Below, piece by piece: positions 15,854-35,220 of a stretch of DNA of 64,000 nt; the stretch's first letter is position 1, and each line of letters begins with the position of its first letter. Source of the DNA: Massilia frigida (GTDB lineage Bacteria; Pseudomonadota; Gammaproteobacteria; Burkholderiales; Burkholderiaceae_D); the NCBI RefSeq assembly GCF_011682175.1, contig NZ_WHJG01000001.1:1-64000 (forward strand), given 5' to 3'. The position numbers were made by a program, and so were the translations under genes. The notes under the pieces are model-generated. The model saw only the letters and a list, made by a program, of their open reading frames with translations. It did not search any database and was not told where the DNA came from.

Positions 15854-15951
15854 TTTTTCTCCATTCCCACCTGCGATTGGGCGGGGCTGACTGTTTAACT
15901 ACCAAGTAAAGGACAGATTCAAAAACACACGAATCCATACCGAAGCCGGCT

Positions 15952-15980
15952 AGGATAGCATGCAAAAAGGCTTGACGCAA
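15952..15980 (-). promoter_or_regulatory. candidate sigma-70 promoter for the rplC-led S10 operon
   Basis: Minus strand TTGCGT (plus 15975-15980), 17-nt spacer, TATCCT (plus 15952-15957) preceded by TGC of the extended -10 type. The predicted start lies near 15945, giving a leader of about 90 nt before rplC. The position fits the need for a new promoter now that rpsJ no longer precedes rplC. No long L4-type leader structure was worked out. Confidence 0.6.
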
Positions 15981-16116
15981 CAACTTAGTTGGGGTTATGT
16001 CGATGTGTTGTGCAGCGGCGGATGCGGAGGTGTTGCGAGGGGCGCAAGCGGGGTGTTTTACGGGGTCAAATGCGTGGGGAAACGCGTAAAACCTGCGGGT
16101 TTCGCTATCTCATGAT

Positions 16117-16181
16117 CCGTCGTTCCCGCCGAGTGCCGCCTTGGCGCGGGAAGTCGTTTCTGGCAATGCCAGGAACGACGG
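16117..16181. repeat. dispersed ~65-bp palindromic repeat, copy 1
   Basis: Outer arms CCGTCGTTCC (16117-16126) and GGAACGACGG (16172-16181) enclose two smaller hairpins (a CCCGC/GCGGG stem, and CTGGC AAT GCCAG). The reverse complement of the element at 40534-40592 aligns with it along most of its length. REP-like dispersed palindromes of this kind are common in betaproteobacterial intergenic DNA. It sits between the rplC promoter and a hypothetical gene. Confidence 0.75.
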
Positions 16182-16205
16182 CCTGGAGGCTGGCGCTCTG
16201 GCGAG

Positions 16206-16709
16206 CTACCTTGCCAGCGGCCGTCCGCCCGACCCGATCCGCAAGCGCAGCCAGAACTGCGCCAGCCGCTCCCACCAGCTGCGCCGGACCCGGCCGGTGC
16301 GCAGGCGCGTCTCGCCCGCCATCGGCACGGCCATTTCCCAGCGCACCGGATAGATATTCACGCGCTTGGTATACCTGCTCAGCAGCGCGGTGGTCTCGAT
16401 CCCGGCAAAATCGAGGTGCCGGTCCAGCAGGAACACGAACATCGGCTCGACATGCTGCTTCTTGCCGCGCGTGCTGACCTCCACGCAGGACGGCAGGATC
16501 ACGCCATCGCTCAAGGTGGTGTTGGCGGCCACAATATAATGACCCAACGGGTCGAGCGGCACCGCGTCCAGGCTGGTCGGGCGCACGAACGACTCCCCAT
16601 TGCCCAGGTTGACCTCCTCGTCGATCGCCCATTCCCAGATGGGATAGGCGGCAAAGTCGGCATGCGTGACCTTGCGGATGGAGCGGCGGATAGCAAGATC
16701 TGGGGTCAT
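16206..16709 (-). CDS. hypothetical protein, 167 aa
   Basis: Soluble protein without signal peptide or membrane segment; Trp- and Arg-rich C-terminus (RRSWWERLAQFWLRLRIG). The first half contains IRKVTHADFAAYPIWEWA and GHYIVAANTTLSDG. I do not recognise a family. It is transcribed toward rplC but separated from it by the dispersed repeat and the rplC promoter, and it is divergent from the Ter module, so its link to either is unclear. Start at 16709 is the first ATG. Confidence 0.6.
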   Translation of the reverse strand: MTPDLAIRRSIRKVTHADFAAYPIWEWAIDEEVNLGNGESFVRPTSLDAVPLDPLGHYIVAANTTLSDGVILPSCVEVSTRGKKQHVEPMFVFLLDRHLDFAGIETTALLSRYTKRVNIYPVRWEMAVPMAGETRLRTGRVRRSWWERLAQFWLRLRIGSGGRPLAR

Positions 16710-16822
16710 GGACGGGGCGGCATAGCTTCGAGGTAACGGGTCCAGTTTACGGCCAGCGCTGATTTCTGTCCAGCAACGCCCAGCTGGCGTGACCGGAAAA
16801 CCTCAAAACAAAAATTTAAGAC

Positions 16823-16852: not shown

Positions 16853-16963
16853 GGCTGGCAAGCACGTTGTATATTACGACCGGAAATTGCAACACTGTAA
16901 TTTTGTTATCGTGCGCCACTGCGTTGGCGTGAAGTGCCCTCAACCCGTTACAAGGAGTTATAC

Positions 16964-17539
16964 ATGGCAATCAGTTTGCAAAAAGGCGGCAACGTCAACC
17001 TGAGCAAGGAAGCGCCGGGACTGACCAAGGTCGTCATCGGCCTCGGCTGGGATCCACGCGCGACCGACGGCAGCGCCTTCGACCTCGACGGCAGCGCCTT
17101 CATGCTCAAGGCGGACGGCAAGGTTCGCGCCGACGCCGACTTCATTTTCTACAACAACCTCAAATCGAGCGATGGTTCGGTGGTGCACGGCGGTGACAAC
17201 ACCTCGGGCGCGGGCGACGGCGACGACGAGCAGGTGCGCATCGACCTGAGCGCGGTGCCGGCCGAGATCGACAAGGTATCGTTCTGCGTGACCATTCACG
17301 AAGCCGAAACGCGCAAGCAGAATTTCGGCATGGTCGGCAAGGCCTACATCCGCTGCCTGAACGCCGAAGGCGACAAGGAACTGGCCCGTTACGACCTGTC
17401 GGAAGACGGTTCGACCGAAACGGCGATGATCTTCGGCGAGCTGTATCGCGCCGGCGCGGAATGGAAGTTCAAGGCCATTGGCCAGGGCTTCAAGGGCGGC
17501 CTGGGGCCACTGGCCAAGTCGTTCGGCGTCAACGCCTAA
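16964..17539 (+). CDS. terD: TerD-family stress protein
   Basis: 191-aa TerD/TerE-type protein. These are small calcium-binding beta-sandwich proteins of the tellurite/chemical stress (Ter) systems. The start at 16964 is chosen because AAGGAG lies 7 bases upstream and the product then begins [18 protein letters not shown], the family N-terminus. Visible family features are [19 protein letters not shown], the acidic [14 protein letters not shown] metal-binding loop, [10 protein letters not shown], and [13 protein letters not shown]. Length equals the family norm (about 190). It is as close to TerE as to TerD, so the symbol is approximate. It begins the 16.96-25.3 kb Ter module. Confidence 0.9.
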
Positions 17540-17688
17540 AGCACGACCCGCTGGTCCGCGCCCGCAAGGATGGCTGCTTCAGGGCGGCGCCTTGCGGGCG
17601 TTGTGACGTGTGGGGGATGCGTATGCATGAGTGCGGCCCGTGAGCGTGCCGGGCCGCCATCCCTCCCCCGTCGTTCCTGCTCCCCAGC

Positions 17689-17718
17689 CCGTCGTTCCCG
17701 CGCAGGCGGGAACGACGG
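17689..17718. repeat. perfect palindromic repeat (short REP-like unit)
   Basis: 13-bp arms CCGTCGTTCCCGC / GCGGGAACGACGG with a 4-nt GCAG loop, preceded at 17669 by an extra half-unit (CGTCGTTCCTGC). It shares the GTCGTTCC core with the longer repeats at 16117 and 40534. It lies in the 250-bp gap between two Ter genes and could act as a transcriptional pause or mRNA-stability element inside the operon. Confidence 0.75.
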
Positions 17719-17789
17719 TTTCGAGGGTGACGGCCAATATACCGGCGCCGTTTACCCAACTCTTCCTCTTACCTGATAGCGCGGACACC

Positions 17790-19124
17790 ATGGAAAACTT
17801 ATCACGCGGGCAGCGTCTGCCGCTGGCCGGCATCGCTCCCAACGGCACCTTCGATATCGGCCTGAACGCCGCCGGCCTGCGGCTCGACTTCGCCTGCTTC
17901 GGCCTGGGCACCGACGGCAAGCTGCTCGATGAGTCGTACATGACCTTCTTCAACCAGCCGCGCACGCCCTGCGGTGGCGCCGAACTGATCGACATCCCCG
18001 GCGACCTGCTCGGTTTCCGCATCGATACCCGCCTGCTGCCCGCCAACATCGACCAACTGGCGATCACCGCCAGCGTCGACGGCGACGGCACCATGTCCCA
18101 GCTCTCCAGCGGCTACCTGCGCCTGCTCGCCGGCACCGAAGAAAATGCGCGCTTCGCCTTTTCCGGCGCCGATTTTGCCCAGGAACGCGCCATCATGCTC
18201 GGCAACCTGTACCGCAAGGATGGCCAGTGGCGCTTCATGGCCGTCGGCCAGGGCTTCAACGGCGGCCTCGACGCGCTGGTGGCCCACTTCGGCGGCGCCG
18301 TGGCCGCCCCCGCGCCGGTCGCCGCCCCGGCATCCCGCCCGGCCGCCGAAGCGGGCCGCGTCTCGCTCGAAAAACGCATCGCCAGCAGCGCGCCCCACCT
18401 GGTCAGCCTGGTCAAGCACGCCACCGTCTCGCTGGAAAAAGTGGGCCTGGCCAAGCACTGCGCCAAGGTCGCCCTGGTACTCGACATTTCCGGCTCCATG
18501 GGCTCGCTCTACCGCAAGGGCCTGGTACAACAATTTGCCGACCGCATCCTGGCCCTGGGCTGCAAGTTCGACGACGATGGCGAAATCGACGTCTTCCTGT
18601 TCGGCTCCAAGGTGCACCAGCCGGCGCCCATGAACCTCGGCAACGCGCGCGCCTACATCCGCGACGTCGTCGAAGCCCACCCGCTCGAAGGCGACACCCG
18701 CTACGGCCGCGCGATGGAAGCGGTGCGCCGCTTTTACTTTCCGGATTCCCAGGGCGGCGAGCGCAAGAGCGCAGTGGCGGCACCCCTGCCGGTATTCGTC
18801 ATGTTCGTCACCGATGGCGGCACCTCCGACAAGCCGCTCACCGAGAAACAGTTGCGCTGGGCTAGCTACGAACCGATCTTCTGGCAATTCATGGGCATCG
18901 GCAAGGGCAAGAAATCGAAAAGCAAGAAACTGCTCCAGTTCGCCGACTCCGACTTCCCCTTCCTGGAACAGCTCGACGAGCTTTCCGGACGCCTGCTCGA
19001 CAATGCCGGCTACTTTTCGGTCAGCTCGCCCGACGAACATTCCGACGCCGAACTGTACGACCTGCTCATGGCAGAATACCCGGGCTGGATAACGCTGGCA
19101 AAACAACACCGGCTGCTTCCCTAA
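17790..19124 (+). CDS. TerF-like protein: TerD domain fused to a von Willebrand A domain
   Basis: 444-aa protein. Residues about 1-170 form a TerD-type domain (LSRGQRLPLAGIAP at the start, RKDGQWRFMAVGQGFNGGL near its end). A Pro/Ala linker and two SLEK-type motifs follow, then a vWA domain (about 225-440) with an intact MIDAS: DISGS at 232-236, the conserved Thr in GDTRYGRAM, and TDGGTSD. This matches the TerF architecture of ter operons, thought to assemble a metal-dependent complex. The start at 17790 (MENLSRG) is preferred: the upstream extension to 17631 merely translates the REP-like repeat. Confidence 0.85.
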   Translation: MENLSRGQRLPLAGIAPNGTFDIGLNAAGLRLDFACFGLGTDGKLLDESYMTFFNQPRTPCGGAELIDIPGDLLGFRIDTRLLPANIDQLAITASVDGDGTMSQLSSGYLRLLAGTEENARFAFSGADFAQERAIMLGNLYRKDGQWRFMAVGQGFNGGLDALVAHFGGAVAAPAPVAAPASRPAAEAGRVSLEKRIASSAPHLVSLVKHATVSLEKVGLAKHCAKVALVLDISGSMGSLYRKGLVQQFADRILALGCKFDDDGEIDVFLFGSKVHQPAPMNLGNARAYIRDVVEAHPLEGDTRYGRAMEAVRRFYFPDSQGGERKSAVAAPLPVFVMFVTDGGTSDKPLTEKQLRWASYEPIFWQFMGIGKGKKSKSKKLLQFADSDFPFLEQLDELSGRLLDNAGYFSVSSPDEHSDAELYDLLMAEYPGWITLAKQHRLLP

Positions 19125-19165
19125 AATAGCAGCAGCAACAATCACGATTCATTAAGAAAGCAAAC

Positions 19166-20200
19166 ATGCGTGTCTGGTTCAACAGGACGTTCTCGTCCGT
19201 GTACGCGGCAATCGGCCTCATCCGCGAAGCCGATCTGGAAGGCCGTTTCCATCTCATTTACACCAATGCCAATCCGCACGCCACCGCCGGCCGCGTGGCC
19301 CACGAATTCTTCGTCGAACCGACCGGCCTGGACAACGCCGCCTACATCGACTGGTGCCTGGAATTTTGCCGCGAGCACCGGGTCGACATCTTCATCCCCG
19401 GCCGCCTGTCGAGCGAGCTGGCCAGCGCCCATGCGCGCTTTGAAGCCCAGGGCACGCGCGTACTGAGCGCCGCCTCGCAGGAACAGCTCGAACTGATCCA
19501 CGACAAGGCGCGTTTCTACGCCACCACCAACCTGCCCGGCGCGCCGGTGGCCGAATTCCGCGTATTCGAGAACGTCGCCCAGTTCGACACCGCCTACGCC
19601 GACCTGCGCGCCCGTTATCCCAAGCTGTGCGTCAAGCCCTCGCGCTCGGTGTACGGCCTGGGCTTTGCCATCCTCGACGAGGAACGCAGCAGCGCCGCCC
19701 TGCTGCTGGCCGGCGCCGAATATCATATCGGCCGCGACGACATGCGCCGCGGCCTGGCCGAGCTGGGCGAATTCCGCACCATGCTGCTGATGGCCTACCT
19801 CGACGGCGTCGAATACAGCGTCGACTGCGTGGGCGACAACGGCCGCCTGGTGTGCGCGGTAGCGCGCAAGAAGCCGATGAAGGCCGGGAACGGCCAGTTG
19901 ATCGACATGCGCGAGGACATCTCGCAAGCGACCGCCGAACTGGCCCGCATCCACGGCCTGAACGGCGTATTCAACGTCCAGTTCCGCGAAGGCGACGGCA
20001 AGCTGCACCTGCTCGAAATCAATCCGCGCATGTCGGGCGGCATCGGCATGGCCTGCGTGGCCGGCCCCAACCTGCCCTACATCGCCCTGTGCGGCTTTGC
20101 CGACGGATTCGACAAGGTGACCGTGCCGCCGGTACGCGACGGCATCCGCGTGGCCGAACTGAGCTCCCCGGCCGAGCTGACCTCGGTGGACTTGCTGTGA
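19166..20200 (+). CDS. ATP-grasp enzyme of the Ter biosynthetic module
   Basis: 344-aa ATP-grasp protein. It has an N-terminal Rossmann-like part (MRVWFNRTFSSVYAAIGLI), the ATP-binding KPSRSVYGLGF region around residues 150-165, and the Mg-ATP signature LLEINPRMSGG around 285-300. ATP-grasp ligases join a carboxylate to an amine or thiol; the substrate here is unknown. It is the first of five enzymes (ATP-grasp, PRTase, HAD, StiP, aldolase) that occur together in many ter loci and were predicted by comparative genomics to make a nucleoside-like metabolite. The stop overlaps the next start (GTGA). Confidence 0.85.
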   Translation: MRVWFNRTFSSVYAAIGLIREADLEGRFHLIYTNANPHATAGRVAHEFFVEPTGLDNAAYIDWCLEFCREHRVDIFIPGRLSSELASAHARFEAQGTRVLSAASQEQLELIHDKARFYATTNLPGAPVAEFRVFENVAQFDTAYADLRARYPKLCVKPSRSVYGLGFAILDEERSSAALLLAGAEYHIGRDDMRRGLAELGEFRTMLLMAYLDGVEYSVDCVGDNGRLVCAVARKKPMKAGNGQLIDMREDISQATAELARIHGLNGVFNVQFREGDGKLHLLEINPRMSGGIGMACVAGPNLPYIALCGFADGFDKVTVPPVRDGIRVAELSSPAELTSVDLL

Positions 20201-21357
20201 GCATGCCCGAGCGCCACCGCCTGAGCCTGCCCACCGGCGAGCTCGAACTCGACATCCACGACAGCGCCTTCGCGCTGGACGACGTGATGGGCTTTGCCGC
20301 GCGCGCCAACGCCAAGCGCGGCTTCCTGTTCCTGAGCAAGGTGCTGGGCAAGCACTGGCCGGTCACGCCCGCCATGATGCGCAAGGTCCACGTCAGCCTG
20401 GCCGATACCGTGCCCGAACTGCCCGGCCCGGTGGTCTTCATCGCCATGGCCGAAACCGCCATTGGCCTGGGCCAGGGCGTGTTCGAAGCCTGGCTGGCCG
20501 CCCATCCCGGGCGTGAGGGCCTGTTCCTGCACACCTCGCGCTACCGGGTGGGCGAGGCCCCCATCATCGAATTCGAGGAAGCGCACAGCCACGCCCCGCG
20601 CCAGTTCCTGCACATGCCGCCGGACGCGCACACGCGCGAACTGCTCTTGCATGCCAAGGCCCTGGTGCTGGTCGACGATGAAGCGAGCACCGGCAACACC
20701 TTCCTCAACCTGACCGACGCCTGCCGCAAGCTCAATCCCGGCATCGCCCACGTGCACCTGGCGACGATTACCAACTTCATGGGCGCGACCGCCACCGCCG
20801 CCCTGTCCGAGCGCTTCGGCTTGCCGGTGACGATGGGCGCGCCGGTCAGCGGCGAATACCGCTTCACCCCCGGCCAGCTGGCCAGCGCCAGCGCCCCGGC
20901 CCAGCTGTTCGATGGGTCCGCCGACCGTGGCGCCAGCGGCGAGTTCGGCCGCTACGGCCTGCACCGCGCCCTCACCATCCCAAGCGGCCTGGCCGAGCGC
21001 CTGGCGGGCGCTGTCAAGCCGGGCGAGCGCGTGCTGGTGCTGGGCACGGGCGAATTCATGCACCCGTCCTACCTGCTCGGCGCGGCCCTGGAACGCCTTG
21101 GCGTGGATGTCGTTGTGCAATCGACCACACGTTCGCCGATCCTGACCTGGGGCGCCGTGAAAGCCGCGCTCACGTTCCCGGACAATTATGGGGAGGGTGT
21201 CGCCAATTTCCTGTATAACGTCACCCCCGGCCAATACGAGCACGTATTCATTTGCCACGAAACCGCGCCAAAACAGGCGCTGCTGGACCTTGCAGACACG
21301 CTCAAAGCGCGCCTGCTCCACTTTAAGACCGAGACCCATGTTGAAGAAGTTTCATAA
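20197..21357 (+). CDS. phosphoribosyltransferase-domain protein (PRTase with TRSP-type C-terminus)
   Basis: 386-aa protein. The PRPP-binding loop VLVDDEASTGNT lies at about residues 157-168. The C-terminal half (from about residue 240) resembles the TRSP-type domain found attached to ter-linked PRTases, with VLVLGTGEFMHPSYLLGA and a strictly conserved-looking STTRSP. GTG at 20197 forms a 4-bp overlap with the previous stop and has GGTGGA 7 bases upstream; ATG at 20203 is the alternative. Presumed to transfer or remove a ribose-5-phosphate group in the Ter biosynthetic pathway; substrate unknown. Its 3' end overlaps the HAD gene by 20 bp. Confidence 0.85.
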   Translation: MSMPERHRLSLPTGELELDIHDSAFALDDVMGFAARANAKRGFLFLSKVLGKHWPVTPAMMRKVHVSLADTVPELPGPVVFIAMAETAIGLGQGVFEAWLAAHPGREGLFLHTSRYRVGEAPIIEFEEAHSHAPRQFLHMPPDAHTRELLLHAKALVLVDDEASTGNTFLNLTDACRKLNPGIAHVHLATITNFMGATATAALSERFGLPVTMGAPVSGEYRFTPGQLASASAPAQLFDGSADRGASGEFGRYGLHRALTIPSGLAERLAGAVKPGERVLVLGTGEFMHPSYLLGAALERLGVDVVVQSTTRSPILTWGAVKAALTFPDNYGEGVANFLYNVTPGQYEHVFICHETAPKQALLDLADTLKARLLHFKTETHVEEVS

Positions 21358-22105
21358 ATTCCTGTTCGCCGACCTGGATGACACCCTGTTCCAGTCGCTC
21401 GAAAAGTGCGAGGGCCGCGGCCTGCCGATCGAAGCGGCCGCCTTCCTCAAGGATGGCAGCCCGATTTCGTACACCACGCCCGGCCAGCGCGCCTTTCTCG
21501 CCTTTGCCCAGGATGGCATGACGATGATCCCGACCACGGCGCGCAACCTGAACGCGTTCCAGCGCGTGGGCATCGACTTCCACAGCTACGCGGTGCTCGA
21601 CTACGGCGGCATCGTGCTGCTGCCGGACGGCAGCGTCGACCAGGAATGGCTGGACCACATGCGCAGCGCCATGCAAGCCGCCCTGCCCGGCCTGCAAGAA
21701 CTTGCCGGGCTGATCGACGCCTGGGCCGAGCGCACCGGTTTCGGCAACCGCGCGCGCCTGATCGAGGATTTCGGCACGCCCTTCTACCTGGTGGTCAAGG
21801 ACCCGCAAAAAATCGCGGCCAAGCTGGAGCCGATCGAGCGCGAGGTGGTCCAGCCATGGATCAACGAGGGCAATCGCGACTACTTCATCCATCGCAACGG
21901 CAACAACCTGGCGATCTTGCCGAAGGCGTTGAACAAATCGCACGCGGTGGCGCACGTGAGCGCGCGCCTGCGCGCCGAACATGGCGATATCCTGACGTTT
22001 GGCATGGGCGACAGCAAATCGGACGCGCGCTTCATGGCCGCCTGCGACTACGCCATCGTGCCGAGCCGCACCCAGCTCGCCGGCCTGACCCTGGAGACCC
22101 TATGA
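21338..22105 (+). CDS. HAD-superfamily hydrolase of the Ter module
   Basis: 255-aa HAD phosphatase. Motif I DLDDT at residues 12-16 (nucleophile Asp12, general acid Asp14), a capped alpha/beta body, the conserved Lys (PKALNKSHAV) and the C-terminal GMGDSKSD that holds the metal-binding aspartates. Likely removes phosphate from a sugar or nucleotide intermediate made by the neighbouring PRTases. Overlaps the genes on both sides (20 bp upstream, ATGA downstream), so translation is tightly coupled. Confidence 0.85.
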   Translation: MLKKFHKFLFADLDDTLFQSLEKCEGRGLPIEAAAFLKDGSPISYTTPGQRAFLAFAQDGMTMIPTTARNLNAFQRVGIDFHSYAVLDYGGIVLLPDGSVDQEWLDHMRSAMQAALPGLQELAGLIDAWAERTGFGNRARLIEDFGTPFYLVVKDPQKIAAKLEPIEREVVQPWINEGNRDYFIHRNGNNLAILPKALNKSHAVAHVSARLRAEHGDILTFGMGDSKSDARFMAACDYAIVPSRTQLAGLTLETL

Positions 22106-23193
22106 ATTTTTCCGGCAGTTACCGTTCGGACGACGTCAGCTTCCTGCTCAAGCCGCTGGCGATGCAGGATTTCGTCGATGTCCCGGAAAAGGAATTCCTG
22201 ATCCAGTCGGGCCAGCGCCACTACAGCGAAATGCTCTCGCCCGAATCGCTGCCGTCCGAGCGCTACCTGGCGGTATTCCGCGAAGCCTGCGCCGCCAACA
22301 CGGCGCGCATGGCGCGCGACTGCCTGACCCTGGCCGGTTTGATCAGCCAGCGGCGCAGCGGCCCGGTGACCCTGGTCTCGCTGGCGCGCGCCGGCACCCC
22401 GGTCGGCGTGGTGTTGAACCACCTGCTGCCCAAGGTGTGCGGCCGCGCCAGCACCCATTACTCGGTCTCGATCATCCGCGACCGCGGCATCGACCAGGTC
22501 GCGCTGGAGCACATCCTGGCGCAGGGCCACGCGCCCGAATCGATCGTCTTCATCGATGGCTGGACCGGCAAGGGCGTGATTTCGCGCGAATTGTCCGCCG
22601 CCATCGACGGCTTCAACAGCCGCCGTGGCACGGCGATTGACGGCGGCCTGTACGTGCTGTCCGACCTGGCCGGCAGCGCCGCCTGCGCCGCCTCCTGCGA
22701 CGACTATCTGATTCCGTCGAGCATACTGAACGCCACCGTGTCCGGCCTGATCAGCCGTTCGATCCTGAACGAGGCAATCGGGCCAGGCGACTTCCACGGC
22801 TGCGTGTACTATCAGCAGTTCGAGGCGCACGACCAGTCGCAAAGCTTCGCCGACGGCCTGGTGGCCGCCGCGCTGGAGATTGCCGCCGCCGATGGCGCGC
22901 AGCAGGTGCAAGCGGTCGACCGCGAGCAGGCCGGCGCCGTCTCGCGCGCCTACATGCTGGCGGCGCTGGACCAGCATGGCATTAGCGACGTCAACATGAT
23001 CAAGCCCGGCATCGGCGAAGCGACCCGCGTATTGCTGCGGCGCAGCCCGCGTCTCTTGATCCTGCGCGACGCCGGCGCGCCCGATGTGGCCCACCTGGCC
23101 CTGCTGGCGCAGGAAAAGAATATCCCTGTGATCGTCGACCGCGCGTTGCCGTATCACGCCGTTTCATTGATCAGGAGTGCACTCGATGGTTAA
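22102..23193 (+). CDS. StiP-family protein (PRTase fold with PELOTA-type C-terminus)
   Basis: 363-aa protein of the StiP type linked to ter operons; databases often label the family a cysteine protease, but the sequence shows a phosphoribosyltransferase-like core. SLARAGTPVGVVL (about 94-106) and the loop IVFIDGWTGKGV (about 149-160) correspond to the PRTase core and PRPP loop, and the last ~90 residues (VDREQAGAVSRAYMLAALDQHG onward) resemble the PELOTA-type module described for these proteins. Starts with ATGA overlap after the HAD gene; the stop lies inside the start of the aldolase gene. Family assignment is from memory of motifs. Confidence 0.75.
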   Translation: MNFSGSYRSDDVSFLLKPLAMQDFVDVPEKEFLIQSGQRHYSEMLSPESLPSERYLAVFREACAANTARMARDCLTLAGLISQRRSGPVTLVSLARAGTPVGVVLNHLLPKVCGRASTHYSVSIIRDRGIDQVALEHILAQGHAPESIVFIDGWTGKGVISRELSAAIDGFNSRRGTAIDGGLYVLSDLAGSAACAASCDDYLIPSSILNATVSGLISRSILNEAIGPGDFHGCVYYQQFEAHDQSQSFADGLVAAALEIAAADGAQQVQAVDREQAGAVSRAYMLAALDQHGISDVNMIKPGIGEATRVLLRRSPRLLILRDAGAPDVAHLALLAQEKNIPVIVDRALPYHAVSLIRSALDG

Positions 23194-24100
23194 GTCGATG
23201 GGAGCGTCGCTGTACGTGCCGGCGAATCACAAATACCTGATGGAGGTGGCCAATGGCCAGCGCATGGGGCACGTGCGCTCGCTGATTTTCTGCACCGAGG
23301 ACGCGGTCGCCGACGCCGACCTGAGCTGGGCGCTGTTCAACCTGTCCGTGGTGCTGGCCAATATGCGCAGCGAAGGCACGGCCGAGCGCTTCGTGCGCGT
23401 GCGCAATCCCGAGGTCATGGCAAGGGTACTGGCCATGCCGGGCGCCGACAAGCTGGCCGGCTTCGTGATCCCGAAAGCGACGCGCGCCAACTTCGACGCC
23501 TACTTCAAGCAGATCCGCAACACCGACCACATGCTGATGCCCACGCTGGAAACGGCGGAAGTATTCAACGACTGGGAAATGCGGCAATTTCGCAAGATGC
23601 TCGAAGCGCCCGGCGTGCGCCAGCGCATCCTGGCGCTGCGCATCGGCGGCAACGACCTGCTGGCCCTGCTGGGCCTGCGCCGTCCGCGCACCATGACCCT
23701 GTACCGCACGCCCCTGGGACCGGTGATCGCGCGCCTGGTCACCATCTTCCGCCCCTACGGTTTCGTGCTGACCGCGCCCGTGTTCGAGCACCTCGACCTG
23801 CCCGAACTGCTCGACCAGGAAGTGGCGGAGGATCTGGCCCACGGCATGGTCGGCAAGACCGCCATCCACCCGAGCCAGATCGCGCCCATCGAGCAGCACT
23901 ACCGGGTCAAGCCGAACGACCTGGCGGCCGCCCGTGCCATTCTCGACGTCGACGCGCCGGCCGTGTTCAAGATGCATAATTCCATGTGCGAAGTGGCCAC
24001 CCACCGCGCCTGGGCCGAACGCACCATCGAACAATCGAACGTGTTTGGCGCGCATCACGACCACCCTCCGATGAGCCCGGCAATTCCACGGGAACTTTGA
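23186..24100 (+). CDS. HpcH/HpaI (CitE-like) aldolase/lyase-family protein
   Basis: 304-aa TIM-barrel protein related to citrate lyase beta subunits and HpcH/HpaI aldolases. Visible features: SLYVPANHKYLMEV at the N-terminus (compare CitE LFVPG), the RVRNPE strand, FVIPKATRAN, and HGMVGKTAIHPSQI near residue 230, the typical C-terminal CitE motif. ATG at 23186 is preferred over GTG at 23177 because AGGAG at 23171-23175 is well spaced for it. Fifth enzyme of the Ter biosynthetic module; probably cleaves or forms a C-C bond in the unknown metabolite. Confidence 0.85.
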   Translation: MVKSMGASLYVPANHKYLMEVANGQRMGHVRSLIFCTEDAVADADLSWALFNLSVVLANMRSEGTAERFVRVRNPEVMARVLAMPGADKLAGFVIPKATRANFDAYFKQIRNTDHMLMPTLETAEVFNDWEMRQFRKMLEAPGVRQRILALRIGGNDLLALLGLRRPRTMTLYRTPLGPVIARLVTIFRPYGFVLTAPVFEHLDLPELLDQEVAEDLAHGMVGKTAIHPSQIAPIEQHYRVKPNDLAAARAILDVDAPAVFKMHNSMCEVATHRAWAERTIEQSNVFGAHHDHPPMSPAIPREL

Positions 24101-24128
24101 ACCTGACTTGAGTGAAAAGGACGCTATC

Positions 24129-25316
24129 GTGACAAATTTTTCGCGCGGACAAAAAGGCAAGCTGGCCGACCTGGGCCTGGCGGCGCCCTTCCAGGTGGTG
24201 CTCGATATCGACAGCGCCGGGCTGGTGATCGACATTTCCTGCTTCGGCCTCGACAGCGCCGACAAGCTCTCGGACGAGCGCTACATGGTGTTCTACAACC
24301 AGCTGGCCAGCCCCGCCAATGAAATCAGCATGACCATGGCCGGGCGCGCCGCCAGCTTCGCCGTCAAGCTCGACGCGCTGCCAGCCTCGATCGCCAAGCT
24401 GGTGTTCGTGGCCGCCATCGATGGCAGCGGCACCATGCGCAATGTGGGCGCCAGCAGCCTGAAACTCGGCGAGAGCGTGCAATTCCCCTGGTCGGGTGCC
24501 GATTTCCAGGATGAAAAAGCCGTCATCGTCGGCGAAATCTACCGTAAAGACGGCATCTGGCGCTTCGGCGCGGTCGGCCAGGGCTTCAACGGCGGCCTGT
24601 CGGCCCTGCTCAAGCATTTCGGCGGCACCGAAGCGACCCCGGGCGCCGCGCCCACGCCGCCGGCCCCCGTGCCGGTTCCGCCCGCGCCCCAGCAGCAACA
24701 GCCGGTATCGCTCTCGAAAGTCACGCTCGACAAGCGCGGCGACAAGGTCTCGCTCGACAAGCGCGGCGGCAGCAAGGGCTTCGGCCGCATCCACGTCAAC
24801 CTGAACTGGAACCGCAGCGCCACGAGCGCCACCGGCAAGGGCATCGACCTCGACCTCGGCTGCATGTACGAGCTGGCCGATGGCCGTCCGGGCCTGGTAC
24901 AGGCGCTGGGCAATGTCTGGGGCGACTTCGACCGTCCACCGTACATGCGGCTGGCGGCCGACGACCGCACCGGGCAATCGGCCGAAGGTGAAAACCTGGC
25001 CATCAACGGCGACCACTTCCACCAACTGAAGCGCGCCCTGATCTTCGCCTTCATCTACGAGGGCGCGCCGAACTGGGCCGCCACCGATGGCGTGGTGACC
25101 ATCAAGATGCCCGACCAGGCGCCGATCGAAGTGCGGCTCGACCAGGGCGGCAACCAGATGATGTGCGCGATTGCCATGATCGAAAACCGCGGCGGCAGCA
25201 TGCAGGTGACCAAGCTGGCCGACTACTTTTCCCAGCAAGGCCGCGAAAGCGGGCACGAGCTGATGGACCGCCGCTTCGGCTTCGGCCTGCGCTGGACCAC
25301 CGGCTCGAAAGACTGA
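24129..25316 (+). CDS. TerD-TerA two-domain stress protein
   Basis: 395-aa protein. The N-terminal TerD-type domain (about 1-170; FSRGQKGKLADLG, GFNGGLSALLKHFGG) is followed by a Pro/Gln linker (PTPPAPVPVPPAPQQQQ), a short repeat VTLDKRGDK-VSLDKRGG, and a TerA-type C-terminal domain (about 205-395; FGRIHVNLNWN, GIDLDLGCMYEL, NGDHF). The GTG at 24129 is chosen because AAAAGG lies 8 bases upstream; a TTG at 24108 is a less likely start. It closes the Ter module. Its TerD domain closely parallels that of the TerF-like gene, suggesting duplication within the locus. Confidence 0.85.
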   Translation: MTNFSRGQKGKLADLGLAAPFQVVLDIDSAGLVIDISCFGLDSADKLSDERYMVFYNQLASPANEISMTMAGRAASFAVKLDALPASIAKLVFVAAIDGSGTMRNVGASSLKLGESVQFPWSGADFQDEKAVIVGEIYRKDGIWRFGAVGQGFNGGLSALLKHFGGTEATPGAAPTPPAPVPVPPAPQQQQPVSLSKVTLDKRGDKVSLDKRGGSKGFGRIHVNLNWNRSATSATGKGIDLDLGCMYELADGRPGLVQALGNVWGDFDRPPYMRLAADDRTGQSAEGENLAINGDHFHQLKRALIFAFIYEGAPNWAATDGVVTIKMPDQAPIEVRLDQGGNQMMCAIAMIENRGGSMQVTKLADYFSQQGRESGHELMDRRFGFGLRWTTGSKD

Positions 25317-25500
25317 AGCACCGCGCCGCCGGCGCTGCCCATGGCAGCCGCCCGGCGCTCCCCGGCCGCAGAACTTTTCGTGCCGGAACGGGTCTTAACA
25401 GCATCGACGCGCGATGTCAGGCACGCCAGAGGCCGAGCGCTTCCGCGCTGCCGTACCTGCGTCCCCCCCGTACCCGGAGAGCTCATCCGATGGACGACGC

Positions 25501-28466: not shown

Positions 28467-29885
28467 TCAGTTCCCGCTTGGCTCCGGGGATGGCTCCGCC
28501 TTGCCGATCTGATACCAGTCCACCTTGCGGGTAGCGACCATGATCGCGCCCAGCACCGCGAACAGCAGGATACTGCCCAGCACCAGCGCATTATTCTCCG
28601 AGCTCAGCAAGCCATACAGCGCACCGTAGAGCACGGTCAGCGCCAGGCCGAAGCCCACGCCGCGCACCCGGTTGCGCAGCACGAAACTGAGGTAAAACCC
28701 CAGCAGCAGGATGCAGGCCGTGCTGGCGATCAGGTAGGCCACGACGAAGCGGATATGTTCCGACAAGCCCACCAGCAGCAGGAAGAACAGCACCAGCGCC
28801 AGGCCGACCAGCAGGTACTGGATCGGGTGAATCGGCAAGCGCTTGAGGATTTCAAAGATAAAGAAGGCGGCAAAGGTCAGCGCCACGAACAGCAAACCGT
28901 ATTTGGTGGCGCGCTCGGCCAGCGAATAGGCGTTCACCGGTTCGATGAAGGCCACGCTGAAGCGGTCGGCGCGGCCATCGCCATCGGCTGTGGGAGCGCG
29001 CGCGGCCGGGGTGGCGTTCGCGGCCGCCGCAGTGCCATCCTGCAGGGCGCGCAGCTGCTGCTGGGTGGCGCTCGACAGCGACGAGATCGACCAGTTGGCC
29101 TTGAAGCCATCGTCGCTGATGCTGCGGTCCTTGGTCGATGGCAGGAAACGGCCGCCGAATTGCGGATGCGGCCACTTCGATGTCAGCGTGATCTGGTTAT
29201 TGCGCGCGACGGGCGAGAAATGCTGGCGTTCGATGCCATCGAGATTGAGGTTGAACGCGAAGTTGACGCGGCCGCCCTGTTCCATCTCCATGGGTGGCAG
29301 ATCGGCATGCAAGCCGCTGCCAAGGGCGACGCTGCCGGTTCCCTGCTGGAATTCGATCGGCTGCTTGCCCCAGGTAATGCTCGGAATATTACGGATGCCA
29401 CGCACATCCTCGATCCCGACCGCGATGCTGGCCTGGCCCACGGTAATGCGCGAGAGCGAATTGGCGCGCGGCAGGGATGACTTGAGCGGCAAGTCGAAGT
29501 TGCCCGACAGCGCGTGCTGGCCGCTGTAATACAAGACCCGGTGGATGCCGCGATAACGGTAATCGGTATCGAAGCGGCCATCGATCGTTAGCTGGTTCGG
29601 AAACACCAGGTGCACCCGGCTGACCGAGCGCCGCACGGTTTCGGGCTTGCTGGCGGCATCGCTGGTGGCGGGCACGGTCACATCGAATTCATCGGTGTAC
29701 GGAATGACCATGATGGGACCGGTGATCGACTGTTCGCGCACCGAATCGGCGGCGATGCTGGCCACGGCCTGGGCGCGGAACTCGGAACGGTCGTTGATGG
29801 TCCCCTGGATCATCGCCAACAGCAGGCAGATCACCAGCGTGAGTGCCAGGATGGCGAGTATTTTGTACAGCAGTGTTTTTTGCAT
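28467..29885 (-). CDS. creD: cell envelope integrity protein CreD
   Basis: 472-aa inner-membrane protein of the CreD family, a target of the CreBC two-component system affecting envelope integrity and beta-lactam/colicin response in enterobacteria and pseudomonads. One N-terminal membrane helix (KILAILALTLVICLLLAMI), a ~300-residue periplasmic part with TGPIMVIPY and GGRFLPSTK, then five or so C-terminal helices including FVALTFAAFFIFEILKRLPIHPIQYLLVGLAL. ATG at 29885 is chosen because GGGAG precedes it and the helix then starts near the N-terminus. Lies downstream of creB-creC on the same strand. Confidence 0.93.
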   Translation of the reverse strand: MQKTLLYKILAILALTLVICLLLAMIQGTINDRSEFRAQAVASIAADSVREQSITGPIMVIPYTDEFDVTVPATSDAASKPETVRRSVSRVHLVFPNQLTIDGRFDTDYRYRGIHRVLYYSGQHALSGNFDLPLKSSLPRANSLSRITVGQASIAVGIEDVRGIRNIPSITWGKQPIEFQQGTGSVALGSGLHADLPPMEMEQGGRVNFAFNLNLDGIERQHFSPVARNNQITLTSKWPHPQFGGRFLPSTKDRSISDDGFKANWSISSLSSATQQQLRALQDGTAAAANATPAARAPTADGDGRADRFSVAFIEPVNAYSLAERATKYGLLFVALTFAAFFIFEILKRLPIHPIQYLLVGLALVLFFLLLVGLSEHIRFVVAYLIASTACILLLGFYLSFVLRNRVRGVGFGLALTVLYGALYGLLSSENNALVLGSILLFAVLGAIMVATRKVDWYQIGKAEPSPEPSGN

Positions 29886-29911
29886 GAAAGCTCCCGATTG
29901 GTGGTGGAACC

Positions 29912-29954
29912 AGTATAGGGAACGTGTATGCGCTGCAGATGCGCTGCGTGTGAA
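29912..29954 (-). promoter_or_regulatory. possible creD promoter with a TTCAC half-site
   Basis: Minus strand TATACT (plus 29912-29917) lies 27 bases before the creD ATG, with no good -35 hexamer. A single TTCAC (GTGAA on plus at 29950-29954) lies near the -35/-45 region. The CreB box of enterobacteria is two TTCAC copies six bases apart; only one is present, so an activator-dependent promoter is a suggestion only. Confidence 0.3.
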
Positions 29955-29996
29955 GTCGCCCGCATGAAAGTTTCCCAACCGGGGTCAGCAACTAAA

Positions 29997-30054
29997 CCGG
30001 GGTCTGACCTCTGATTAGCAACGTTTTTGTTGCTAATCAGAGGTCAGACCCCGG
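29997..30054. repeat. perfect 26-bp inverted repeat downstream of creC
   Basis: Arms 29997-30022 and 30029-30054 are exact reverse complements (26 bp; CCGGGGTCTGACCTCTGATT... ) around a 6-nt GTTTTT loop. The right arm ends immediately before the creC stop codon. A further partial copy (CCGGGGTCAGCAAC) lies at 29979-29992. GGGGTCTGACC / GGTCAGACCCC units recur in many proteobacterial genomes, in some cases tied to REP-associated transposases. It can fold as a very strong hairpin in creBC-creD transcripts and may uncouple creD from creBC. Confidence 0.85.
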
Positions 30055-31481
30055 TCAGGAAACCAAGACGATGGGCAGGTGCAGCATGGCGCAGACGCCG
30101 TGCGGCTCGATGTTGTCGACCGTTACCCGGCCGCCGTGCAGCGCCATCACTTCGCGCACGAACGGCAGGCCCAGGCCCGTGCTTTTGGCGCCGTCCGGGC
30201 GCGGCAGCGAGTAGAAACGCTCGAACAGCCGCTCGCGCGCGAACGCGGGAATCCCACTCCCGCTGTCGCTCACGCTGATCACCGTTTCATCGCCCATTTG
30301 CTCGCCCCGCAATGTGATGACGCCGCCCGGCGGCGAGAAATCGATCGCGTTGTCGAGCAGGTTGCCGACCGCCTGGCGCAGCAGCAGCGGGTCGCCTTTC
30401 ACGATCAGCTTGTCGATGAAGGCGTCCAGGGTCAGGCCGCGCGCCAGCAGCCGCACCGAGACATCCGCCCGCACCTGCTCGGCCAGGGCGCGCAGCGGCA
30501 CCGTTTCCGGCGCGCCCAGGCGCTGCTGCTTTTCCACGCGGATCAGCGCCAGCAACTTGTCGATCAGCTGCTTCTGGCGCAAATTCTGGTTCAGGATATT
30601 GCCGAGGAAATGCTGGCGCTCGGCGGCCGGCATGTCTTCCTGCATCAGCTCGGCCGAGCCCTGGATCGCCGCGATCGGGCTCTTGAGCTCGTGGGCCAGG
30701 GTGTGCATCAGTTCTTCCACGTATTCCTTGCCTTCGAGCTTGTTGCGCATCGCTTCGAGCGCGCGCCCGAGCGTGCCGATCTCGTTATTGCCCAGCGCCG
30801 GCAAGGTCGCCTTGCGGCCGGCCTCGACATCGGCGATGTACACCATCAGGGTGCGCAGGGCGCGGTTGAGCCACCAGGCAAATCCCACCCCGATCAGCAG
30901 CGACGAGCCCAGCAGCACGGCGCCGCGCTGCAGGATGATGCGCTGGCTGCGCTCGACAAACGGTTGCACGGTCGAGACCGGCTTGGCGACGGTCAGCACG
31001 CCGATGATGCGCTCGCCATCCATGATGGGCGCCGCCACGTGCATCACGGCGCTGGTGTCGTCGCTGCCGGTGGCGCGCGTGCTGCGCGCCCCGTACTGGC
31101 CGCGCAGGGTGAGGTAGACATCGTTCCACAGCGAGTAATCCTTGCCCACATCCTTGCCGCTCGAATCGAAGGTGACGCGCCCCTGCAGGTCGGTGATGTA
31201 CACCCGGTAATTCAGGCTGCGCTTGTTCAAGCCATCGATCTGGACATCCACATGGCGCCTGGCGACGTTCTGGATGCGCGTGAGCATCTGCGAGTCGCCC
31301 ACCTTGCCGGCCTTGACATCGTCGGCCACCACTTCGGCCAGCAGGTGGGCGGTATCGACCAGGGTGTCTTCCAGCGTCGAGCGCACGCCCGGCTTGACCT
31401 GGGCCACGAACACATTGAGCAAAAACCACGCCGCCAGCCCGACAATCAGAAAGTAGCCGAGCAGGATGCGCAGGCCGATCC

Positions 31482-31485
<4 letters not shown>
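30055..31485 (-). CDS. creC: sensor histidine kinase CreC
   Basis: 476-aa membrane kinase. An N-terminal helix (LRILLGYFLIVGLAAWFLLNVF), a periplasmic sensor (about 30-190), a second helix (GAVLLGSSLLIGVGFAWWL), HAMP, HisKA with the phospho-accepting His265 in HTLAHELKSP, and an HATPase domain with DNAIDFSPPGG, GSGIPAFARERLF and GLGLPF. The start at 31485 (MRIGLRILL) overlaps the creB stop by 4 bp and restores a normal N-terminus; the open frame to 31674 adds an Arg-rich stretch opposite creB coding sequence. The stop abuts the palindrome at 29997-30054. Confidence 0.93.
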
Positions 31486-32177
<692 letters not shown>

Positions 32178-32369: not shown

Positions 32370-32411
32370 TGATGATCAAGCCACCTTAACCAAACTACAA
32401 GAAAGAATATC

Positions 32412-33107
32412 GTGTCAGCAAAATCATTCCTCGCGTTCGCCCTCGTTGCCTCGGCCTGGATCTCCAGCGCCCAGGCGACCATTCTCACCACCACTTCGCG
32501 CGGCGTGATCAGCAGCGTTGCCCAGAACAACCTGGACGAATTCGGCCCGGGCGACCTGGTCGGCAAGCGCTACCAGATGACGCTGACGTTCGACGATACG
32601 GGCGCCACGCGCGACCATTACCTGAACCAGTATGACGGCCTGTATGGCTTGAATCTGTTCAGCGCCAGCATCACGGTCGACGGCGTGACGCGCAATTACC
32701 GCCGCACCGGGCATTTCCAGCAGCAGACCGCCAACGGCGCATCGACCGCGAGTGCGTGGGGATCGGACCAGGCGTTCGCCGGCGTGAACTGGACCACCCA
32801 GGATGAAAGCATGTATGCCTACCACGGCATCGAATCGGTGAATCACTTGTTCGCCGGCGCCAACGCCAGCCTGACCACGCCTTTCTCGACCACTGTGCGC
32901 CCCGACCTGTACGACTACGCGATGAAACAGTCGCAGTTCGGCTACAACGACGTGCTCACGGGCCGCTCCACGGTGTTCTACGGCGATATCCAGGAGTTTT
33001 CGATGAGTACCGTGGCGGCGGTGCCGGAACCGGTCAGCCTCGCTTTGCTGGGACTGGGTGCGCTGGCCATGCTGGGCGCACGCAGGCGCGCGCGCCAGCC
33101 GGCCTGA
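32412..33107 (+). CDS. PEP-CTERM sorting-domain exported protein
   Basis: 231-aa secreted protein. A signal peptide (about 1-22, SFLAFALVASAWISSAQA) is followed by a beta-rich body with no recognised catalytic motif and a classic C-terminal PEP-CTERM signal: VPEPVSLALLGLGALAMLG followed by ARRRARQ. Such proteins are handled by exosortase (EpsH/XrtA type), encoded elsewhere, and are linked to exopolysaccharide/floc formation. GTG start with a weak purine-rich site (AAGAAAGAA). No other exosortase gene is in this window. Confidence 0.9.
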   Translation: MSAKSFLAFALVASAWISSAQATILTTTSRGVISSVAQNNLDEFGPGDLVGKRYQMTLTFDDTGATRDHYLNQYDGLYGLNLFSASITVDGVTRNYRRTGHFQQQTANGASTASAWGSDQAFAGVNWTTQDESMYAYHGIESVNHLFAGANASLTTPFSTTVRPDLYDYAMKQSQFGYNDVLTGRSTVFYGDIQEFSMSTVAAVPEPVSLALLGLGALAMLGARRRARQPA

Positions 33108-33113
33108 GCGGGA

Positions 33114-35006
33114 TCAAGGCGGCGCGCCCGCGCCGATGGTGCGCTCGAGCAGCTTGAAGAGGGCGCCGTAGAATTTTTCGCGGTTGTCTTCATGGTAAAT
33201 GCCATGGCCCTCTTTTTCCAGGATCATCCACTCGACTTCCTTGTTCGCTTCCTTGAGCGCCTTGTGCATCTTGCGGCCGTGCTCGATCGGCACGCGCCGG
33301 TCCCATTCTCCGTGGGCCAGCAGCACCGGCGCCGTGATGCGCGCCGCGTTCTTGAGCGGCGAGACCTGGTCGAAGGCCTGTTTGGTGCGCCCTGCCCCGC
33401 CCACCAGGATATTCGTGGCCAAGCGTCCGGTCGCCCCGGCATTGGTATCGGAATCGTCCTTGAGCATGTATGCAATATCGCTGACGCCGGCAAAGCTGGC
33501 GCCGCAGCGGTACAGCTCCGGCGTCTTCGCCAAGCCCCACATGGCGGCATAGCCGCCGTAGCTGGCGCCATAGATGCAGATGCGCTGCGGATCGGCGTGA
33601 CCCTGCTCGACCAGCCAGCGCACGCCATCGCTGATATCGTCCTGCATCGCCAGTCCCCACTGGCCGTAGCCGGCGGTCATGAAGGCCTTGCCGAAGCCGC
33701 TGGAACCGCGGAACTGCGGTTGCAGCACAACGTACCCGCGCGCGGCCAGCAGTTGCACTTCGGGATTGAAGCTCCAGCCATCGCGGGCGGCGGGACCGCC
33801 GTGGATCAGAATGACGGCAGGTTTTGCCGCGCCGGTCGCGGACGGCAAGGTGAGATAGGCGGGAATGCTCAAGCCATCGCGCGCGGTATAGCGCACGACC
33901 TGCATCGGCCGCATAGCGCCGGCATCGATCTCCGGCTTGGCCGACGCCACCTTGCGTAACGATGCGCTCGGCACGTCAAGCAACAACCACTGGCCCGGAT
34001 CGACATCGCTGTACGAATAGATCAGCAGCTTGTTGGTCAGGCTGCCGGAGATCAGATTCATCCGGTCCGGCAAGGCCGTATCGACGCTCTTTTGCATCGC
34101 CGCCCAGGCCGGATCGAACCATTCGACAACGGGTTTCATGCCCGCGCTGGCGATCTGGCGAAACTGTCCGTCGGTCTCGGTGTCGGGTACGTAGATGTCC
34201 TGGGTCGGATGACCGGCGAGCAGCTCGCCGACGCTGCGCGTCTCCAGGCTGTAGCGGAAGTAGGCGAAGGTGTCGCGATCGTGGCGCGACCTCACCACCA
34301 GCGACTTTTGGTCGCGCGACAGGCTTTGCGGCCACCAGTGCTCGTCGCTATAGCCGAAGGTGGCCAATTTTTCCCAGGGCTTGTCTTGCGCGGCCCGATA
34401 CCAATGCGTGATGCTGGTGTCGTCCGACCAGATGGCGGTGCTGATGGTGCTCACCACGCGGGCGTCGCCATTGTCGTCGAGTATCCACCATACCGGCTTG
34501 CCGGGCATATGGAAGTTGACCACCTCGGACTCGCCCGTCCTGAGCGTGATGCGGGCGATGTACGCCGGGGTGCGGTAGCCGTTAGCCAGGATACGCACGT
34601 TGCCGGCCGAGTCAGGATTGACCTTGCCGATGTAGCGGCTGCCGAGGAAGGTGGGGTACGTTCCGCTCAGGTCGATCAGGTCCACGCCATGATCGGAATC
34701 GACCGCCAGCCGGGTATCGTCGACCCAATCCACGTCGCTCGGGTTCTCCATAGCGGGACCTTCGCTTTCGAGAAAGCGCGAGGCCATGGTCGCCGTATCG
34801 ATCAGCACCAGCTTGCTCGCCTCTCCCTTGCGCGCGATGGCAGCGATGTGCTTGCCGTCCGGGGACAGGGTCATCGACAGGTAGGCCGGCAGGCGCAGTG
34901 CATCCTTGATGCCCAGGATGGGGGGCTCGGCCATGCAGGGGGCGGCGGCAAGGCATAGCAGCCAGAGCAAGGGGTGCAGCAGGGTTCGGAAGACGGAAGC
35001 GATCAT
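33114..35006 (-). CDS. secreted S9 (prolyl oligopeptidase) family peptidase
   Basis: 630-aa serine peptidase/dipeptidyl aminopeptidase-like protein. A signal peptide (about 1-25, LLHPLLWLLCLAAAPCMA), a WD-like beta-propeller (about 30-370; LSPDGKHIAAIARKG), and a C-terminal alpha/beta-hydrolase domain with HGGPAARDGW, the nucleophile in YGASYGGYAAMWG, the Asp in GEWDRRVP and the His in KEGHGIYH. The triad is complete. The ATG at 35006 is preferred over an upstream frame to 35087 because it starts directly at the signal peptide. Convergent with the PEP-CTERM gene (6 bp between stops). Confidence 0.92.
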   Translation of the reverse strand: MIASVFRTLLHPLLWLLCLAAAPCMAEPPILGIKDALRLPAYLSMTLSPDGKHIAAIARKGEASKLVLIDTATMASRFLESEGPAMENPSDVDWVDDTRLAVDSDHGVDLIDLSGTYPTFLGSRYIGKVNPDSAGNVRILANGYRTPAYIARITLRTGESEVVNFHMPGKPVWWILDDNGDARVVSTISTAIWSDDTSITHWYRAAQDKPWEKLATFGYSDEHWWPQSLSRDQKSLVVRSRHDRDTFAYFRYSLETRSVGELLAGHPTQDIYVPDTETDGQFRQIASAGMKPVVEWFDPAWAAMQKSVDTALPDRMNLISGSLTNKLLIYSYSDVDPGQWLLLDVPSASLRKVASAKPEIDAGAMRPMQVVRYTARDGLSIPAYLTLPSATGAAKPAVILIHGGPAARDGWSFNPEVQLLAARGYVVLQPQFRGSSGFGKAFMTAGYGQWGLAMQDDISDGVRWLVEQGHADPQRICIYGASYGGYAAMWGLAKTPELYRCGASFAGVSDIAYMLKDDSDTNAGATGRLATNILVGGAGRTKQAFDQVSPLKNAARITAPVLLAHGEWDRRVPIEHGRKMHKALKEANKEVEWMILEKEGHGIYHEDNREKFYGALFKLLERTIGAGAPP

Positions 35007-35133
35007 GGAAGCGGGGTCGTTGAGTGCCGGCGCAAGGGGGGCGGCGGGCGGGCGCAAGAGTATACCCGCGCACATGCTGCGTCGCAATAATCGTGGCGTG
35101 GGGGAAGCTGAAAATAGGACAATGTAAACGCAT

Positions 35134-35176
35134 CAGGGCCGGGTCCGTTCGCTAAAAGCGAACTCGCCCGGCCCTG
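35134..35176 (-). terminator. strong stem-loop after rpsJ (end of the str-rpsJ operon)
   Basis: 10-bp outer stem CAGGGCCGGG / CCCGGCCCTG (35134-35143 / 35167-35176), a small internal loop, and an inner GTTCGCT/AGCGAAC stem with an AAA loop, about 45 bases past the rpsJ stop. The minus-strand sequence after it (ATGCGTTTACATTG) has no clean U tract, so it may be a weak, Rho-assisted or 3'-end-protecting structure. Confidence 0.55.
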
Positions 35177-35220
35177 ACTCGCCCGCGCACATCAATGCGC
35201 TGGCGGCAACACTGCAATGA

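Follow-up and report, generated by a model that had tools for sequence, protein, structure and literature searches.

The closest described system is the leader of the Escherichia coli S10 operon, in which stem E is the attenuator hairpin and the attenuator holds AGG and AGU, according to the available part of PMC10578931. A 2024 review, in the portion available (PMC10931766, section 3.3), describes the L4 site as not widely conserved, present in part of the gammaproteobacteria only, absent in Pseudomonas and of late origin. An S10 leader in Firmicutes is mentioned in the accessible text of PMC7247131. We analyzed a 64,000-nucleotide (nt) stretch of the Massilia frigida genome (contig NZ_WHJG01000001.1, positions 1 to 64,000; hereafter the window), in which rpsJ (S10) and rplC (L3), both on the minus strand and each with a single match in the genome, are separated by 19,370 base pairs (bp). 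The first-pass annotation of this DNA had reported such a break, of about 19 kb and filled with stress-type genes on both strands, and the measurement bears it out. The main value of the analysis is a betaproteobacterial leader hairpin before rplC that resembles, by its sequence, the L4 attenuator of E. coli; we found no description of this rplC leader in Rfam or in the literature searched. We propose, with a probability of roughly 0.7, that the betaproteobacterial 'S10 operon' is two units with an L4-type leader before rplC, and that a single ancestral insertion at the seam between them was followed by turnover. The elements on which this proposal turns are listed below.

15197..15853, minus strand: rplC (L3), opening gene of the downstream operon rplC-rplD-rplW-rplB-rpsS-rplV-rpsC-rplP
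15854..15951, minus strand: rplC leader region (alignment A1 of 41 leaders; fold)
15866..15885, minus strand: L4-type hairpin, 6-bp stem, loop CAAUCGCA, 3 nt before the Shine-Dalgarno sequence GGAG (15859-15862)
15952..15980, minus strand: candidate rplC promoter, -35 TTGCGT (15975-15980), 17 nt, -10 TATCCT (15952-15957), then a G+C-rich discriminator
35125..35200, minus strand: very stable hairpin region 3' of rpsJ, candidate terminator or 3' end (-51.7 kcal/mol, z -7.9)
35221..35532, minus strand: rpsJ (S10), closing gene of the str operon rpsL-rpsG-fusA-tuf-rpsJ (Pfam Ribosomal_S10)

The hairpin stands directly before rplC, which is followed by rplD (L4), and by gene position it would be the leader of an operon encoding L4. 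All 66 Oxalobacteraceae leaders read carry a hairpin with the loop CAAUCGYA beside the Shine-Dalgarno sequence; 57 of them were distinct and kept, and 40 of these were aligned with the window (alignment A1). A model built from Oxalobacteraceae alone (R1) was too narrow: it matched 14/150 genomes at the level of the order, each time adjoining rplC, and 2/143 at that of the class, and the rpsJ–rplC spacers were therefore read directly. From the 138 non-Oxalobacteraceae betaproteobacterial genomes with rplC, 60 were taken, places away from contig ends being preferred. A strict pattern, the loop CAAUYGNA plus stem, is present in 56 of the 60, against a dinucleotide-shuffle expectation of 0.095 for a stem of at least 3 and 0.005 for at least 4. 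A second model, R2, recovers the hairpin in three of the four genomes missed by the pattern, bringing the count to 59/60 with only G188 lacking it; the window hairpin itself is matched at 15863-15888 with 30.7 bits and E 1.1e-6, the window row being one of the 65 in the model. Within 130 nt before rpsJ, by contrast with its place before rplC, the hairpin occurs in 0/57 betaproteobacterial genomes.

Covariation was assessed in alignment A3, whose 65 rows (60 distinct) are the 56 hairpins found by the strict pattern, 8 from Oxalobacteraceae and that of the window. Two-sided changes are found in 6/6 pairs and 85 cells, compared with a shuffled mean of 24.8 (0/500 shuffles as high) and 4-17 cells in slid controls, and the covariation score is 0.783 vs 0.309 shuffled. 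Upstream of the L4-type hairpin the window leader contains a further, variable hairpin (A1, fold). At the Rfam gathering score nothing matches in the window, and the surroundings of the leader give only chance-level microRNA and small nucleolar RNA matches; the E. coli S10 region has no Rfam leader match either. Mimicry of 23S rRNA was tried and rejected: a pattern scan of E. coli 16S and 23S gave only mismatched loops and short stems, R1 gave only chance-level matches (best E 2.9), and R2 gave none in rrnB; a 23S gene was not found in the window's own genome. E. coli 23S (L236, position ~787) holds GGCCAATCAAACCGG, which loosely resembles the hairpin and has no model match.

The E. coli S10 leader contains the stem-loop CCCAU-CAAUCGUA-AUGGG, 46-71 nt before rpsJ. 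In 9.9 kb of E. coli DNA comprising the S10 region and rrnB, the sole match of R2 up to E 5 is the S10 leader (16.8 bits, E 0.0032), although R2 was built without E. coli. AGG and AGU also stand just behind this stem-loop, and in our reading it is stem E. The L4 proteins of the window and of E. coli share 55% identity.

We then compared gene order across Oxalobacteraceae, a check suggested by the first-pass annotation. The family sample held 175 genomes, with rpsJ in 155 and rplC in 158, and 143 entered the gap measurement; some listed rpsJ or rplC places without a listed partner were left out. In five genera (g1, g4, g6, g18 and g40) the two genes are split in 40/40 measurable genomes, the window's own included, by 2,329-42,024 bp, and the rpsJ and rplC sides keep their order and strand on one contig in all 40. 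The distance in other genera is 139-388 bp in 97 genomes. Four more genomes of the five genera and both genomes of genus g11 have rpsJ and rplC on separate contigs. The split is thus shared throughout a large clade of bacteria from soil and water and is not peculiar to the window genome. Among the best 80 of 573 relatives, the split loci are labelled Massilia, Duganella, Pseudoduganella, Janthinobacterium or Rugamonas, or come from some unnamed metagenome-assembled genomes (MAGs), and the unsplit loci are labelled Undibacterium, Herbaspirillum, Collimonas, Noviherbaspirillum, Oxalicibacterium, Herminiimonas and others.

We built a tree with 78 rows from eight ribosomal proteins (all eight are present in 77 of the 80 loci) and scored four contigs that end before rpsJ as split (L004, L016, L045 and L079; gap at least 1.4-5.3 kb). 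The 42 split rows need two changes, vs a mean of 25.9 with shuffled labels: a single gain, placed on a branch whose support is 100 and whose sister is Oxalicibacterium, and a single loss in the Janthinobacterium MAG L015 (278 bp). Genome G019 is also joined (297 bp) and, judged by rplC alone, groups there as well (a set of 13 rows, 11 of them split, support 99); adding it gives three changes, namely one gain and two losses, or else one shared loss, which the short tree leaves unresolved. DNA similarity between the two joined species is 83-85%, and both contigs stop in or just beyond tuf. The joined drafts L015 (278 bp) and L141 (297 bp), near Janthinobacterium, keep a G+C-rich hairpin with a U-rich tail between rpsJ and rplC. 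The first-pass annotation had considered a rearrangement, rather than a simple island insertion, possible. Inversion or translocation is rejected by the two halves lying on one strand and one contig in all 40 genomes; together with the differing cargo and the two rejoined relatives inside the clade, the conserved order and strand fit an insertion at the seam and later turnover.

A generic sigma-70 scan found no promoter before the window rplC and misses the candidate block because its hexamers are TTGCGT and TATCCT. The block TTG(N3), 16 to 18 nt, TAYNNY and then GGCT precedes rplC in 43/43 split-clade genomes (39 measured ones, the window excluded, and the four on two contigs), in 17/21 unsplit genomes and in 1/2 of g11, all as raw counts with no shuffled baseline. 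The window holds GACATAACC at 15993-16001, some 12 nt 5' of the -35 hexamer of rplC; a GACATACC-like element is seen by eye at the same place in many split and several unsplit genomes and is possibly an activator site or an UP-type element. At the other side of the seam, tuf lies upstream of rpsJ (Pfam), and further open reading frames (ORFs) match fusA, rpsG and rpsL by length. Fold energies after rpsJ were compared with mononucleotide shuffles (15 each, best 50-nt window), following a home-made strict terminator pattern that was judged too narrow. A stable hairpin (z < -2) follows rpsJ in 37/40 split genomes (median best 50-nt energy -36.0) and in 15/21 unsplit ones (-17.6), with a U-rich tail in 24 split and 7 unsplit genomes. 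Since the promoter block and the rpsJ hairpin occur in unsplit genomes too, the two transcription units probably predate the break. From these sequence features we infer promoter activity before rplC and termination after rpsJ. The separate units and the rplC promoter proposed by the first-pass annotation accord with the promoter-like block at 15952-15980; of its rpsJ hairpin, the stable region stands and the U-run is weak.

According to our proposal, rpsJ would end the str operon, and rplC would head a separate operon that has its own promoter and, by the Shine-Dalgarno sequence, a leader hairpin (stem-CAAUYGNA-stem), the putative counterpart of the attenuator hairpin in the L4-controlled E. 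coli leader. By analogy, free L4 would most likely bind the hairpin, block rplC initiation at the Shine-Dalgarno sequence 3 nt away and lower rplC-rpsQ, and rpsJ would be exempt from the L4 loop whether or not a betaproteobacterial genome is split. A free seam would exist in the spacer 5' of the promoter, where incoming genes could settle and leave both units intact; cargo upstream of both promoter and hairpin should not matter for rplC control. Foreign or displaced genes, probably including a Ter module, would have entered on a single occasion in the common ancestor of the Massilia/Duganella/Janthinobacterium clade; individual lineages would then have exchanged the cargo, and in one or two of them it would have been deleted again. 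We infer L4 as the ligand, and the route of insertion, from sequence comparison. Most likely the betaproteobacterial L4 switch would lie before rplC and survive the break, and control of the downstream half is probably not lost by the split. The first-pass annotation had argued that L4 feedback on a leader before rpsJ would no longer reach rplC-rpsQ; since the hairpin precedes rplC whether or not a genome is split, it should be untouched by the break, and that regulatory consequence is probably wrong.

Several observations weigh against this proposal. The 98.6% of paired cells in A3 is inflated because its rows were picked by exact loop and stem, two-sided changes in 6/6 pairs were reached by 88/500 shuffles, and the whole window leader folds no better than shuffles (z -0.73). 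The E. coli match of R2 is weak, with a non-standard outermost pair, and R2 also scores 15.6 and 13.8 bits (E 0.05 and 0.17) at two sites elsewhere in the 64-kb window that are unrelated. In E. coli, stem D is required for L4 control, as stated in the available part of PMC10578931. Among 40 gammaproteobacteria, taken from 117 genomes with rpsJ with places away from contig ends preferred, only five have the hairpin, all between rpsJ and rplC (four with R2 E < 1e-4), and none has it within 300 nt before rpsJ; a sixth match, in G406, is weak (E 0.027) and lies in the rpsJ–rplC spacer by coordinates. On the side of the seam, the U-run of the rpsJ hairpin region at 35125-35200 is weak, and the strict terminator pattern occurs in 5/40 split genomes (1.5 expected) and 4/21 unsplit ones (0.4 expected). 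Finally, one unsplit MAG, L036, is named Duganella; it groups with Herbaspirillum in the tree.

The competing explanation that survives best, which we still judge unlikely, is that the hairpin is a translation-initiation element or the site of another operon protein such as L3, its likeness to E. coli being due to convergence or chance. The hairpin adjoins the Shine-Dalgarno sequence in many genomes, a CCUU...AAGG pairing seen by eye could cover that sequence in several, and L3 is the first gene product of the rplC operon; the low E. coli score of R2, nearly equalled by chance places in the window, fits this explanation as well. It is opposed by the loop CAAUCGUA, which recurs letter for letter in E. 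coli, by the U-A closing pair in 23/60 distinct rows, and by the position of both the E. coli and the betaproteobacterial leaders in an operon encoding L4.

The origin of the inserted DNA bears on the remaining alternatives. The window cargo comprises the following features.

15854..35220: cargo region between rpsJ and rplC, stress-type genes on both strands
16206..16709, minus strand: 167-amino-acid (aa) ORF (cluster 16) without family match, at the seam in 7/40 split genomes, all g1
16934..25316, plus strand: Ter stress module, 8 genes (Pfam/NCBIfam)
25414..28389, plus strand: MASE1-PAS-GGDEF-EAL enzyme of cyclic di-GMP (c-di-GMP) (Pfam/NCBIfam)
28467..32177, minus strand: creBCD (CreB 31482-32177, CreC 30055-31674, CreD 28467-29978)
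32412..33107, plus strand: PEP-CTERM protein (PF07589, TIGR02595)
33114..35087, minus strand: S9 family peptidase (Pfam Peptidase_S9, 8.1e-50)

The Ter module consists of TerD, TerD-vWA, ATP-grasp, PRTase_2/TRSP, HAD, StiP/PELOTA, C-C bond lyase and TerD families. CreD matches PF06123 (1.2e-142, Pfam), and CreC and CreB score 632 bits (cutoff 356) and 339.6 (cutoff 273), respectively, each against an NCBIfam equivalog. Pfam and NCBIfam thereby confirm the contents named earlier (Ter, c-di-GMP enzyme, creBCD, PEP-CTERM and S9 peptidase). The reported lack of integrase, transposase and att-like repeats also holds: no integrase or transposase was recognized among the 15 gap proteins scanned (Pfam/NCBIfam), no direct repeat of at least 18 nt joins the gap ends among the 20 repeat families listed out of 22, and the gap carries no repeat of the rpsJ 3' end. 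The integrase or transposase genes and flanking direct repeats of a genomic island with integrase were thus not found at this gap. A perfect inverted repeat with 27-nt arms and 6-nt spacing lies between creC and creD (29996-30055) and looks like a repetitive extragenic hairpin. Elsewhere in the window, ARAGORN calls a permuted transfer-messenger RNA with a 24-aa tag (49865-50389), where Rfam has no match; judged by length and tag, the call looks like a false positive.

Across the 40 gaps the Ter core (clusters 6-10) stands at the seam in constant order and orientation in 7/11 g1, 5/8 g18 and 2/3 g4 genomes (14/40 gaps, three genera). The CreB, CreC and CreD clusters are each present in 19/40 gaps, with 10/10 in g6, 7-8/11 in g1 and 1/8 in g40; in G045 (g4), CreB is accompanied by a call that fuses CreC and CreD. 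The remaining cargo is variable and includes TonB receptors, esterases, MscS, trehalose-phosphate synthase, LacI, cupin, ROK and PP2C. The Ter PRTase_2 gene is located elsewhere in 10/10 g6 genomes, 4/9 g40 genomes and G125, and is also present in the unsplit genera g12, g33 and g10. The pattern is read most simply as a single ancestral insertion that carried the Ter module along, with turnover afterwards.

Two genomes hint at how DNA arrives at the seam. G149 carries a 105-nt copy of the rpsJ 3' end, with the hairpin usual for its genus, ~2.3 kb behind an intact rpsJ that has a different terminator. Between the two lies a 713-aa ORF (L137, 4406-6724) with no Pfam, PADLOC or NCBIfam match, which looks like a single-gene islet carrying its own rpsJ end; a PD-(D/E)xK-like stretch is seen in it by eye. 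In G170 (L122-L124), whose 41.9-kb gap also holds IS66 and IS110 transposases, rpsJ is present a second time as a complete gene, 97% identical and 3.1 kb further downstream. That the cargo consists of integrative islets targeting the rpsJ 3' end, as these two cases would suggest, is improbable as a general account: rpsJ-end repeats occur in only 2/47 sequences examined (a third match, in G171, is 22 nt), the window gap has none, and among the part of 110 gene clusters scanned with Pfam no integrase was recognized and transposases appear in G170 only. We are equally doubtful that the position itself was selected, through high expression or closeness to the origin and the resulting stress-gene dosage. 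The constant order and orientation of the Ter module in three genera speak for such selection; the displaced PRTase gene in all Janthinobacterium-type (g6) and several g40 genomes, and the wide differences in cargo, speak against it. An assembly artefact, which the first-pass annotation had named as a finding that would overturn the split, can be dismissed for the clade despite the many assemblies that break in or beside tuf, next to rpsJ, as the same split with related but differing cargo occurs in 40/40 measurable genomes, and in ten of these the contig measures 4.2-7.4 Mb (G018, G048, G070, G079, G106, G123, G139, G148, G157 and G170).

Candidate further breaks lie outside the split clade. 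In genus g11 (G010 and G051), which rplC and part of rplD place outside it, the genes after rpsJ run for ~9 kb and 4.6 kb without rplC; in G010 (L129, L130) they encode EAL, FlhD, MotA and MotB, and the 10 kb before rplC lack rpsJ. An independent rpsJ/rplC break in g11 (G010; G051, L131) is likely, not proved, because both genomes are drafts with the two genes on different contigs. Three of the 60 other betaproteobacteria likewise have no rpsJ within 900 bp of rplC (G226, G182 and G312; L195, L226 and L231). A wider reading, which we offer tentatively and at a little less than even odds, is that the L4 hairpin is old in beta- and gammaproteobacteria and ancestrally stood before rplC, with rpsJ belonging to str; the enterobacterial site would be derived, and operons would break repeatedly and reversibly just upstream of the L4 leader and promoter, so that the leader would mark the true operon start. 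If the hairpin is the L4 site, its wide presence before rplC argues against a late and restricted L4 site, and an L4 control hairpin would reach nearly all betaproteobacteria sampled, at a moved position. The proposal yields a testable rule, that the position of a regulatory leader decides where a ribosomal operon may be cut, and the clade's genomes with different cargo, together with their rejoined relatives, constitute a natural experiment on operon splitting.

Known systems resemble the locus in part. Eckert and Weinberg (2020) likewise described candidate structured 5' untranslated regions with covariation before ribosomal protein operons; unlike the present hairpin, the L4 leader in the available part of the table in PMC7247131 is assigned to Archaeoglobi and the L2 leader to Alphaproteobacteria, and the words 'Betaproteobacteria' and 'Burkholderia' are absent from that paper's main text. 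The rpsJ motif of Peptostreptococcaceae is also a candidate leader before the S10 gene, but it belongs to a clostridial family and precedes rpsJ, and is set apart by its description in the available part of PMC11109978, whose main text contains neither 'rplC' nor 'Betaproteobacteria'. The E. coli S10 leader shares the loop CAAUCGUA, the short stem and a place in the leader of an L4-encoding operon, with the weak model match noted above; it differs in that its hairpin stands before rpsJ, whereas the betaproteobacterial hairpin lies a few nucleotides before the rplC Shine-Dalgarno sequence and leaves rpsJ outside. The separation of str and S10 in E. coli offers the closest parallel in gene order, as the S10 operon there also starts at an L4 leader with the non-ribosomal genes gspB and gspA upstream; the E. 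coli seam, however, lies upstream of rpsJ, and here it lies between rpsJ and rplC.

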